This document shows, piece by piece, positions 1 to 60,800 of a stretch of 64,000 bases of DNA (its first letter is position 1; every line of letters starts with the position of its first letter). The notes below the pieces were generated by a model, which saw nothing but the letters and a program-made list of their open reading frames with translations, searched no databases and was not told the DNA's origin. Position numbers and translations under genes: made by a program. The stretch spans positions 12,899,818 through 12,963,817 of the forward strand of contig OZ037772.1 in NCBI GenBank assembly GCA_964035545.1, in the 5' to 3' direction. Source of the DNA: Bugula neritina (taxonomy: Eukaryota; Bryozoa; Gymnolaemata; Cheilostomatida; Bugulidae).

Positions 1-3000
1 AGATTTGGGACTCGGCTGCATAGTCAAACTGTAGAAAACAACGTGTTGATAGTATGTGTTGATAGAATGTGTTGAGAATATGTGTTGATAGAATGTGTTG
101 ATAGAATGTGTTGAGAGTATGTGTTGATAGAATGCGTTGATAGTATGTGTTGATAGTATGTGTTGAGAACTCAAGAGATGTATGTAACAATTCAACAGTC
201 AAGTTGAAAAGCTGTTTAGAAGCAGTGAATAAGTGAGAGAGTGAGTGAATGAGTGAGAGAGTGAGTAAACGAAAAAATGAATACAAATAAGCAAACAAAC
301 AGGATAATAACACAGCGAGGTAATAGCTGACTGTGAATCATATATTGAATAGTAACTACATTATCCAGTTAACAATAGTGATTTAATTATGAGTAAAGTG
401 TGAGGTGAATGAGATGGCTAATGTTATACTAACCTGACAGGGATTAGGTGAATGAGATGGCTAATGTTATACTAACCTGACAAGGACTAGGTGAATGAGA
501 TAGGTAATGTTATACTAACCTGACAAGGACTAGGTGAATGAGATAGGTAATGTTATACTAACCTGACAAGGATTAGGTGAATGAGACAGCTAATGTTATA
601 CTAACCTGGAATCCTCCCTTCAGAGAAGAGAACCAGTGCGATTTCCCAGAACTTGGTTTCTGCCAGGTCCTTGGTAGAACCATGTCATGACCCTTCTTAG
701 GGTGAACACAGGTCTCTCCCTCTCCAGTCATGTTACACCACACTTGGATTGCGTCATTTATAACTCCGAGATTAGGGTCGATCCAGTACCACCCTAAACA
801 GATCAAATAGCAGACGTTAGAGATCAAATAGCAGGCAGCATCAGCTCAACAAAATGGAGAAGAAGTCATTGTTAGTTACTCAGCAACTTCTATACTTAGT
901 TTACCTATTAGTAGCTAGTAGCTAGTAGCTAGTAGCTAGTAGCTAGTAGCTAGTAGCTAGTAGCTAGTAGCTACTAGCTACTAGCTAGTAGCTAGTAGTA
1001 TTCTAGTAGTATTCTGAAGCAAATATACAGACAGAGCAGTTCAAATGTCAACTGCAAATAGTCAATAAATGCGGCAGACGTGAGGAGATACAGACGTGAG
1101 GAGATACAGACGTGAGGAGAGACAGACGTGAGGAGATACAGACGTGAGGAGATACAGACGTGAGGAGATACAGACGTGAGGAGATACAGACGTGAGGAGA
1201 GACAGATGTGAGAAGATACAGACGTGAGGAAATACAGAGGTGAGGAGATACAGACGTGAGAAGATACAGACGTGAGAAGATACAGATGTGAGGAGATACA
1301 GACGTGAGAAGATACAGATGTGAGGAGATACAGACAAGAGGAGATACAGACGTGAGGAGATGCAGACGTGAGGAGATACAGATGTGAGGAGATACAGACG
1401 TGAGAAGATACAGACAAGAAGAGATACAGATGTGAGGAGATACAGATGTGAGGAGATACAGACGTGAGGAGATACAGACAAGAAGAGATACAGATGTGAG
1501 GAGATACAGACGTGAGAAGATACAGACAAGAAGAGATAGACGTGAGGAGATACAGACGTGAGAAGATACAGACAAGAAGAGATACAGACGTGAGGAGATA
1601 CAGACGTGAGGAGATGCAGACAAGAAGAGATACAGACGTGAGGAGATACAGACGTGAGGAGATACAGACGTGAGGAGATACAGACGTGAGGAGATACAGA
1701 CGTGAGGAGATACAGACGTGAGGAGATACAGACGTGAGGAGATACAGACGTGAGGAGATACAGACGTGAGGAGATACAGACGTGAGAAGATACAGGCGTG
1801 TCACGTACCGTCCTTGAACTCTGGGTGAGCCAAGTACAAGTCTTTACAAGATCTGGCTGGTGATTCTCTTCCTCCATTTGGATACCGTACGTCATCGAGC
1901 TCTGTCTTCAGGTCGTCAATCTCATTGAAGATCTTTTCAATCACATGACCTAGAAAGTGTCATGACAGAATGGAGAGCTTTACTCATAAAAAGGGAGCTA
2001 GAATCTGTGACATTACTAAATGTGACACTTCTACAGAGCAAAAATGTGGGCGTGGCTTACCTAGAGTGGGCGTGGCTTACCTAGAGTGGGCGTGGCTTAC
2101 CTAGAGTGGGTGAAGGTGGCATATCAAACACATCTTGCTGAGGTTCGTCTGCGACCATCTGTTGTCTGACGGAACGTCTCTTGCGACTCAGAGCTCTCTG
2201 GGCGAAGTCACTCGGGACGGGACTGGCGATACCGGCATCAACACCAGGAGCTCCCTACAGGCAGAGTGAGAGTGAAGAGTCACACAGGAAACTGACTATG
2301 TCATCAACATTGAATACAAGCAGTGGTTAGACTGTACTTACAGCGGGTCCTGGCAAACCAGGTGGTCCATCTCTACCAGGATCTCCCTTAGAACCAGCAG
2401 TACCAGGTGGTCCAGCTGGACCCATAGGTCCATCTGGTCCAGGAATTCCAGGAGCACCAGGTGGTCCTAAATTTATTTCAACAAGACTTGTAGGTTTCAT
2501 CATATCAGAGAATATCACAAAAAGATGTTTAATTAGAATGTGATTCACATTCTAATTCGTATGGAAATGTTTGACCAACAAAAGTGACTCAAAGCATTAC
2601 CTGGTTGTCCCTTGATTCCACCAGCACCTGGCAGTCCACTTGGTCCGCGCTGTCCCTTCAATCCCACTGCACCAGCAGGTCCTGGAGGTCCAAGTAATCC
2701 AGTATCTCCTTTGTCTCCCTTTTCACCAGTCTCGCCTTTGACACCAGGGATACCTGGGTCTCCGATTGGTCCGGTATCTCCTGGCTTTCCAGGCATACCT
2801 GGAGATCCAGAATCTCCAGCAGGTCCTGGTTGTCCGGCTGGTCCTTGAGCACCCTTCAAACCAGCATTACCTGGTCCTCCAGGTGGTCCTTGCATACCCT
2901 GTAGTCCTGCACCAGAAACAACATTCAAGTAGTAAAATGAACCACTATAACTGAATACAGTGTCGGGTGAGATGAGAACATGTGTGTACCTGGTGGTCCT

Positions 3001-57800: not shown

Positions 57801-60800
57801 CATTCTGTTTGTTAGTCTATGTATTGTTTTAGACATCAATGTGTATTATTTTAGACATCAATGTGTATTGTTTTAGACATCAATGAATGTGAGGGTAACT
57901 TCACATGTCCACTCAACTCTCTCTGCAAAAACTCACCAGGAACCTATGACTGCCCGGATTGTATGAAGGGGTACAGATGGGACCTCAATAAGACTTCCTG
58001 TTATGGTAGGAACTCAAGTTATACATATGATATGATACACTGCAAGCATAGCGCTAAACCAGGGTCTCTTACGGAATAGAAGTATAGTGTCTAGTAGAAC
58101 AGACCTGTACAACTAGTCCTGTGTCTTTCTAGATCACATCACTTTGTGTCACATCACCCGGTGTGTCACGTGACAGGGTACCATGTCACATTATATTCAC
58201 ACAGTACTGTATAAAGTGTAGTAGTTATACCGTTTTACCTCACCCTGTTTATAGATATAAATGAGTGTGATGAAGGCATTGATACTTGTCCACCAAACAG
58301 CGTGTGTAACAATACTATTGGCTCATTCAAATGTCCCAGATGTAACGATGGATATGATTGGACAGATAGCAACCAGACAGCCTGTGAAGGTACTTGTAAC
58401 TAAAGTGTAGCAGTTTTGTCCAGGTTATAAACTTAGAAATATTAACTTTAAATTTTCATTTATTTCACAGGAATTTGAAGGGTGAAACTCTCCTAATTTA
58501 CAACTATTGCTAAACCCACAGCTCATTGTCAGCACACTGCAAGCTGTAGTAATGTTGTCTTCTTCTATTTACAGATGTGGATGAATGTGCTAATGATACT
58601 CACACCTGTCCAGAGAACAGCGTGTGTAACAATACTATTGGTTCCTTTGAGTGTCCAGTGTGTGAGGATGGATATGAGTGGACAGATAGCAACCAGACAG
58701 CCTGTCAAGGTAAACGCTGATGATGGAAAACATGAAACTGTTTGCAATCAGTATTAGTAGTACTCTTGTCTAACTAACACTACTCTGTAACTAACACTAC
58801 TCTGTAACTAACACTACTTTGTAACTAGCACTACTTTGTAACTAGCACTACTCTGTAACTAAATATACTATATTACTAGTCTACAGTTACTACTCTACAG
58901 TTACTACTCTACAGTTACTACTCTACAGTTACTACTCTACAGTTACTACTCTACAGTTACTAGTCTACAGTTACTAGTCTACAGTTACTACTCTACAGTT
59001 ACTAGTCTACAGTTACTAGTCTACAGTTACTAGTCTACAGTTACTACTCTACAGTTACTAGTCTACAGTTACTAGTCTACAGTTACTAGTCTACAGTTAC
59101 TACTCCACAGTTACTACTCCACAGTTACTAGTCTACAGTTACTAGTCTACAGTTACTAGTCTACAGTTACTACTCCACAGTTACTACTCCACAGTTACTA
59201 CTCTACAGTTAGAGTTTACTCTATTGTGTGCTGAAGCTAGCAGGGCAGTGCAGAGTAATTTATATTGGTTTATTGGTAACACAACTCCCTCTACATTTAG
59301 TATTTCACATACTATCATGTGGAGTAGGATTTTACATGTGTTTGTACCATCGTCTTGATATACTTCCAGATGTGGATGAATGTAAACTGAAGACTCACAC
59401 CTGTCCAGAGAATAGTGTGTGTAACAATACTATTGGTTCCTTTGAGTGTCCCAGATGTAAGGATGGATATGATTGGACAGATAGCAACCAGACAGCCTGT
59501 GCAGGTGATTATAACAAAAATACACTCTTAATATAATATTCTGATTCTGTTTTGCTTTCTCCTATTTATTTCTAGTTTCGTATTATTAATTCACTCTCAC
59601 TACACACTTGAGTATTACTAATTCACTCTCACTACACACTTGAGTATTACTAATTCACTCTCACTATACACTTGAGTATTACTAATTCACTCCGACTACA
59701 TCAAAAGAGGAATAGTAGGGTTGCACATTAAGTACTGCTGTTTATTTTCTAGTCTCGCTTGTCTAAGATGTTAACTTCTACCTTCCAAGGTCTGCATGTA
59801 TCTAACTCTTAGACCTTCAATGTCTACTGTTTACAAGGCTTCCTTTACTATTTATAGATATAGATGAATGTGTTAATGGTACTCATACTTGTCCCCTAAA
59901 CAGCGTGTGTAACAATACTATTGGTTCCTTTGAGTGCCCAGCCTGTGAGGATGGATATGAGTGGACAGATAGCAACCAGACAGCCTGCAGAGGTGAGGGT
60001 TGTGTGAGGAATGAAAGGAAATTATTTTTTTATTATGCTGTTTCAAGTTATTTCTTCAGCCTCTGCTTTATCGGATTATCAGTTTGATGTGACATCTAAA
60101 GGATGGAGTGAGGGACAGCTGAAAGCTGTAGTTTAGTATTCTATATGCATGTGTCAACTTTAAACATGTTACATCTGGTGGGTAACTCCAATGCCGTGGG
60201 ATAGACTGCAAATTGCTAGTTCACAGCTGCTTAATTTTCTCTTGCATATGTCCTTTAAAAATCTATGGTGCTGGGAGCTGTAAAATATCTCTGGGCATAT
60301 TTTCCCTGAGCTCCTGAAGTCAGAAAGGCTGTCTGCTAATCTGCCCGTACTGGAAGGAAATATCAACTCGCTCAGTTTCAATAAATAAGTTACACTTTCT
60401 CACTCTATACTCAGTGGCATACTCAGTATACTCTTTCACTACTACCTTCTCTGACCAGTGAATATACAGCTCTCTCTCTCTGACCTGTTTTCAATTTTTC
60501 TATTGAGTTTATTGAATCTCCGTATTTCATTTTTGAATAACAATTTTCAGATGTGAATGAATGTGCTAATGGCACGCATACCTGTCCAGAGAATAGCGTG
60601 TGTAGCAATACTATTGGTTCCTTTGAGTGTCCCAGATGTAAGGATGGATATGATTGGACAGATAGTAACCAGACAGCCTGTGAAGGTGATTGTTACATAA
60701 GTTTACTGAATGTAATATATTGTGAGCTATTGCAATGAGATCTCAAATAATCTATGAAATAAAACTCATGGAGATATTAGAGTGGATCTATTGGTTTCAA

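Follow-up and report, generated by a model that had tools for sequence, protein, structure and literature searches.

The window examined here, a 64,000-nucleotide (nt) stretch of the genome of the bryozoan Bugula neritina (contig OZ037772.1; C8:12899818-12963817), raises the question of why so many of its intronic minisatellites carry copies of splice junctions. A sequence-only reading of this DNA had listed 14 tandem arrays whose units appeared to copy the adjoining exon-intron junction, and had proposed either a duplication process that favours splice junctions or a tolerance for spare splice sites. We used the positions of array edges, compared with those of simulated arrays, to separate these possibilities. 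Junctions are copied about as often as chance predicts; donors may show an excess, acceptors do not. In this array-dense region the arrays are biased towards 5' splice sites, in most cases a short way into the intron, and it is the strength of this lean that looks to be the new part. We consider it probable that the arrays are intronic minisatellites of the kind described as 'mirages' in amphioxus, near-random in origin, with the outer splice site kept in use.

Tandem arrays and the true exon edges

Arrays were detected with Tandem Repeats Finder (TRF), exon models came from a home-made gene finder, and junctions were checked by homology. The gene models are predictions from DNA sequence and include some errors: the finder missed exons of the uricase gene, added a false exon at 39639-39680 and misplaced one donor in a second hemicentin-like gene, and the main placement-test counts and homology-set counts given below use hand-corrected models. 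TRF found an array at all 14 listed places, as follows, with the start given in the sequence-only reading added in brackets.

403..608 (412), minus strand: donor array, 43-nt unit x4.8, collagen C-propeptide exon, ~3 exon nt (CAG); TRF, exon 606-793
2046..2110 (2040), minus strand: donor array, 20-nt unit x3.2, collagen, 10 exon nt copied; TRF, exon model
20526..20784 (20530), minus strand: array, 25-nt unit x10.4, at an FN3-like exon, junction ambiguous; TRF, exon model
22714..22932 (22715), minus strand: donor array, ~37-nt unit, 11 exon nt copied; TRF, gene by prediction only
26713..26786 (26727), minus strand: donor array, 27-nt unit x2.7, 17 exon nt copied; TRF, gene by prediction only
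30038..30146 (30020), minus strand: donor array, 39-nt unit x2.8, MDP1-like phosphatase, ~7 exon nt copied; TRF, homology
32940..33249 (32940), minus strand: acceptor array, ~42-nt unit, PPP1R11, 10 exon nt copied; TRF, homology
38325..38535 (38322), plus strand: acceptor array, 39-nt unit x5.4, uricase intron 4, 3 exon nt; TRF, homology
38698..39038 (38711), plus strand: donor array, 24-nt unit x14, uricase intron 5; TRF, homology
39455..39692 (39452), plus strand: donor array, ~24-nt unit, uricase intron 6, 23 exon nt copied; TRF pieces 39455-39594 and 39606-39652
46665..47007 (46665), plus strand: donor array, 21-nt unit x16.5, hemicentin-like gene, 14 exon nt; TRF, vWA profile
51833..52301 (51823), plus strand: acceptor array, 34-nt unit x13.7, hemicentin-like gene, 19 exon nt; TRF, tandem paralogue
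54465..55059 (54465), plus strand: acceptor array, 40-nt unit x13.9, EGF exon, 17 exon nt; TRF array 54496-55059
57820..57885 (57815), plus strand: acceptor array, 22-nt unit x3, EGF exon, 9 exon nt; TRF, EGF pattern

By sequence and exon models, the apparent splice junction lies within the repeat unit at 13 of the 14 places, so the claim that the units copy junctions stands apart from 20530-20782, where the gene finder placed the donor in the second copy. What is copied of the exon amounts to 7-23 nt at most of the arrays and to about 3 nt, little beyond the splice consensus, at 412 and 38322; in the 38711 array the exon match is exact for 3 nt and diverged over about 22. GT is kept in all four inner copies of the 403..608 array, and the 2040 array lies in the same collagen gene, in a diverged part of it. 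The arrays had been assigned to all six multi-exon genes, a count that requires the FN3-bearing exons of the 16-21 kb and 21-27 kb stretches to form one gene and that otherwise becomes seven.

Use of the exon-proximal copy as the exon edge is supported from both flanking exons at nine of the 14 places, by homology or by a paralogue, and from the exon side only at a tenth (412); at 22715 and 26727 it is a prediction only, and 20530 is ambiguous. The uricase gene offers the closest view.

37035..40028, plus strand: uricase gene, 8 exons, C-terminus SKL, arrays touching an end of four of its seven introns; homology

Translated with exon-proximal sites, it aligns to PDB entry 4mb8 (E 6.6e-79) gap-free at the four array-touched junctions, the nearest gap being one residue about seven residues ahead of the first of them. 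The MDP1-like gene is likewise gap-free against 2wm8 at the junction of the 30020 array, with a two-residue gap a few residues downstream, and at the 32940 acceptor the PPP1R11 match to 8dwk has a one-residue gap that is a split-codon cysteine missing from the query; the exons after these two arrays were read by eye in three-frame translations. A collagen I C-propeptide alignment of the exon ahead of 412-606 reaches the donor, and the exon following that array was not found in the collagen gene. The hemicentin-like gene, with VWA_4, GBD_Hemicentin and EGF domains, is accompanied by a tandem paralogue located just beyond the right-hand side of the window. By eye, this paralogue has matching exon edges at 51823 and 54465, and the edge at 46665 is consistent with the vWA profile and that at 57815, by eye, with the EGF pattern. 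We infer that the outer splice site would be the one used in RNA.

Placement of arrays relative to splice sites

Two sets of comparison regions were used, the next 40 kb (L026-L029, 64-104 kb of the joined stretch) and five other blocks (L001-L025). The samples comprised 85 introns in the window (49 with arrays), 31 in the next 40 kb (23) and 158 in the five other blocks (34); blocks B2 and B4 contain retroelement-like frames, recognised by eye, and part of their predicted introns are false. In each of 5000 simulations the arrays of each intron were placed at random within it, a straddle of the junction being permitted up to one unit. An array was counted as straddling if it held at least 3 exon nt, and a stricter class of arrays was defined by a unit of at least 15 nt and a TRF score of at least 80.

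Array edges at the donor or within 20 nt inside it numbered 26 in the window against 13.7 expected and 13 in the next 40 kb against 5.8, values reached in 0 of 5000 simulations in either region. With stricter arrays the excess in the next 40 kb was smaller (8 against 3.6, P 0.009). Acceptors gave no significant excess of edges within 20 nt (window 6 against 13.6; next 40 kb 9 against 6.1, P 0.10). For the window and its neighbour together, 19 edges fell between +7 and +20 inside the intron where 6.1 were expected, and in most of 26 cases inspected the array begins beyond the donor motif and leaves it uncopied; exceptions are 66900, which straddles with an indel, and 64723, which is due to the misplaced donor. 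Four further arrays of the window, all outside the earlier list, begin at the first intron base or a few nucleotides inside the donor.

37808..38040, plus strand: array, 16-nt unit x14.8, starts exactly at intron base +1, uricase intron 3; TRF
47123..49668, plus strand: 5'-anchored array without junction copy, 22-nt unit x115.7, starts 9 nt inside the donor; TRF
7394..8282, minus strand: array, 22-nt unit x40.4, starts 5 nt inside the donor of a collagen intron; TRF
1075..1800, minus strand: array, 16-nt unit x45.5, starts 8 nt inside the donor of a collagen intron; TRF

Another way to view the lean is to compare, within each intron, the distance from the array to its two ends. Among homology-supported genes (98 introns, 55 with arrays) the gap on the donor side was the smaller in 43 of the 55, with medians of 14 and 101 nt, and the lean was present on both strands (29 of 37 on plus, 14 of 18 on minus) and stable across five TRF settings. 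The remaining introns of the window and its neighbour behaved similarly (donor gap smaller in 18 of 24, 18 against 6), as did introns whose unique sequence amounts to 150 nt or more (donor-nearer 26 against 7). The homology set contains some genes of blocks B1 and B5 that were chosen after straddling arrays had been noticed there, so the test on all introns is the fairer one; for the five other blocks that test gave no clear lean (donor-nearer 18 against 16; edges at or within +20 of donors 5 against 2.8).

Copying of the junction itself tells a different story from the lean. Straddles in all predicted introns of the window numbered 7 at donors and 4 at acceptors, against 6.6 expected for each, leaving out 412, 30020 and 32940, whose introns were not paired by the finder; in the next 40 kb they numbered 4 against 2.4 at donors and 2 against 3.0 at acceptors, and acceptors of the five other blocks gave 1 against 1.4. 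With stricter arrays the counts at donors were 7 against 5.3 in the window and 4 against 1.7 in the next 40 kb (P 0.08), and those at acceptors 4 against 5.5, 2 against 2.0 and, in the other blocks, 1 against 1.1. Earlier nulls for the 102 arrays of the window and its neighbour gave 17 straddles against 11.1 when arrays were spread uniformly across introns (P 0.05) or 18.4 when each was placed in the same intron. One of the 17 is a false acceptor straddle due to the false exon 39639-39680, and it also enters the counts behind the continuum of edge positions and the comparison of interior arrays. About 20 straddling arrays thus lie in the 104-kb stretch, 17 in predicted introns and three placed by hand. 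The fraction of the unit made up by exon sequence, set by hand for 21 curated straddling arrays, ran from 0.07 to 0.96 and was not distinct from uniform (Kolmogorov-Smirnov P 0.21); acceptor units were longer than donor units as a trend only (P 0.08).

Straddles near chance, and edge positions that form a continuum peaking at +7 to +20 inside the donor, do not bear out the proposal that junction-copying arrays are a distinct class. Nor does the observation that each array extends only into the intron, correct as geometry, reveal a special process, since a duplication that crosses a junction leaves the outer exon intact wherever it begins. A duplication process favouring splice junctions is not supported at acceptors and may amount to a modest preference at donors.

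We suggest that local tandem duplication would begin at a near-random spot in or across an intron and that slippage or unequal exchange would probably then lengthen the array. Should the initial duplication include a junction, each further copy would bear a spare splice site; the intact original would be the exon-proximal copy, and the added copies would be intronic by geometry. The spliceosome, or the culling of alleles that use inner sites, could keep the exon-proximal site in use and leave the array close to neutral. Duplications near the 3' end may disturb the branch point, the pyrimidine tract or first-AG choice and so be less tolerated there.

Several results weigh against this near-random reading. 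When end zones of 6 and 40 nt were protected in the simulations a donor excess of 14 against 7.0 remained, and tolerance alone therefore does not account for the lean. In the five other blocks donor straddles exceed expectation (4 against 1.3, P 0.035; stricter arrays 4 against 1.1, P 0.018), as they do in the homology set (12 against 6.8, P 0.03; stricter 12 against 4.6), although this set restricted to the window gives 4 against 4.7. The lean itself was absent from the other blocks outside the homology set (donor-nearer 11 against 16).

The rival that survives best, which we regard as possible but doubtful, is duplication targeted to intron starts, through transcription, R-loops at the 5' splice site or the chromatin step between exon and intron, with donor copies as its edge-crossing part. 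The two-fold donor excess in two neighbouring regions, with no significant acceptor excess, speaks for it, as does the persistence of the excess with protected end zones and in introns rich in unique sequence. It is weakened by the unclear result in the five other blocks and by the shrinkage of the neighbour's excess with stricter arrays, and the gene models behind it are predictions. We put forward only tentatively the reading that new arrays arise or survive preferentially in the first 20 nt of introns, via transcription- or splicing-linked seeding, with mirages as the exon-crossing tail. Within the near-random reading, we think that the lean may be partly differential tolerance and partly a mutational preference near intron starts.

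Interior arrays were also tried as hidden junction copies and rejected: among 114 of them, donor motifs occurred in 8 in sense and 8 in antisense orientation, against 2.9 in shuffles. The interior arrays 7394-8282, 18412-18558 and 52552-54216 have units with strong donor motifs on the antisense strand.

Fate of the spare sites and age of the arrays

A single array has up to 15 inner copies in the window and up to 18 in the neighbouring 40 kb, and the spare sites that they carry are mostly intact. Among the curated arrays GT/AG is kept in 142 of 154 inner copies scored (two of the 12 misses, at 30038, being due to scoring in the wrong register), and many inner copies score equal to the true splice site. 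This would fit the idea that spare sites are maintained by selection, as back-ups or for alternative splicing, as would a human minisatellite that reportedly has multiple donor sites (Turri et al. 1995, by title). Mismatches, however, amount to 12/308 in the core GT/AG, while the remaining motif positions give 61/1244 and positions beyond the motif 111/1912, the core rate not being below the outside rate (P 0.23); the unit length is divisible by three in 8 of 21 arrays; and in uricase intron 5 use of an inner donor would bring in a TGA immediately past the true donor. No selection on spare sites was seen in the mismatch rates and unit lengths of these 21 arrays, and we judge such maintenance very unlikely. 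Nothing suggests that the inner sites are preserved, eroded or translated, and these data support the proposed tolerance for spare splice sites, given straddles at about the neutral placement rate.

The two hemicentin-like paralogues bear on the age of the arrays. Homologous introns of the pair hold arrays with unrelated units, as judged by eye, and in one such intron an acceptor array in one paralogue faces a donor array in the other. The same intron places with unrelated arrays imply that arrays were added to introns already there, as the sequence-only reading had suggested; the simplest reading is that the arrays of the pair would have arisen after the gene duplication, in pre-existing introns. 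Intron gain via tandem duplication of AGGT-containing exon sequence (the Rogers model), with the arrays as the origin of the introns, is compatible with the unit structure, and introns are reported in fission-yeast 24-bp AGGT repeats in the part of PMC4974935 drawn on here. It is nonetheless highly improbable, because in the paralogue pair, where creation of the introns by duplication was tested, intron places are shared while the arrays are unrelated, and because most exon copies are short. An artefact of gene models or assembly is scarcely credible either: the home-made finder made its errors and long arrays are hard to assemble, yet the uricase, MDP1 and PPP1R11 junctions agree with solved proteins and the lean occurs on both strands. 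Given the lack of visible selection on the spare sites and the unrelated arrays of the paralogues, the arrays look young, independent and near neutral.

The surroundings show further repetition. In the hemicentin-like gene six near-identical EGF exons lie in a row at 58255-61029 (TCPENSVCNNTIGSFECP... and close variants), which looks like tandem exon duplication. The next 40 kb holds the second hemicentin-like gene and a TMEM26-like gene, also with junction and 5'-anchored arrays. Two intronless frames on the minus strand, 41868-42791 and 43900-44751, appear related by eye, with Thr/Pro-rich repeats and signal-like N-termini, and had no match to any Pfam family at E 0.001. Some 385 kb separate the window from the end of C8 (13.35 Mb, in an assembly of 215.8 Mb), and by TRF 27% of the window is tandem repeats. 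Its fibrillar collagen, hemicentin-like and FN3 genes mark it as animal DNA. Per 10-kb piece (last piece 4 kb) their cover is 6-49% in the window and 9-52% in the next 40 kb, compared with 5-26% in the C5 block and 0-9% in the four other blocks; near the end of C8 it is thus far above that of most interior blocks sampled.

Comparison with known systems

A human interferon-induced minisatellite reportedly provides multiple splice donor sites, to go by the title of Turri et al. 1995 and one citing sentence, and its locus is said to be IFI6/6-16. As in our donor arrays, its copies carry donor sites; there, however, a single locus is concerned and the title implies that inner donors are used, whereas the sites described here are known from sequence alone. 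Intron gain by tandem duplication, treated in the part of PMC4974935 already cited, likewise involves duplicated sequence that bears splice signals, but it yields a new intron, while here existing introns are lengthened.

The closest parallel is with the amphioxus mirages. As described in the portions of PMC3087553 used here, these are minisatellite-like repeats across exon-intron boundaries, at either end of the intron, in Adh3 and the globin genes BflGb6 and BflGb9; those of Adh3 have units of 10-72 bp, with AG/GT in many copies. The same portions report that regular splicing is apparently undisturbed, that the repeats show length and somatic instability, and they set out a model of intron gain. 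In B. neritina too the unit spans the exon-intron boundary, in 13 of the 14 listed arrays, both donors and acceptors are affected, and the units of 19-43 nt in the 21 curated arrays fall inside the Adh3 range. What differs from the mirages as there described is the number, about 20 arrays in a 104-kb stretch, and the measured lean to the 5' splice site. A literature search turned up no report of minisatellites leaning to 5' splice sites.

Such arrays form a dense natural set of near-identical tandem splice sites in which to study how the spliceosome chooses among equals and what spare sites cost, and they are test cases for the proposal, made in the same portions of PMC3087553, that mirages can yield new introns. 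If the 5' lean is true genome-wide, it would tie the birth of minisatellites to transcription or splicing. We conclude that this region adds many new members to a kind of array already known, and that these show a positional bias.

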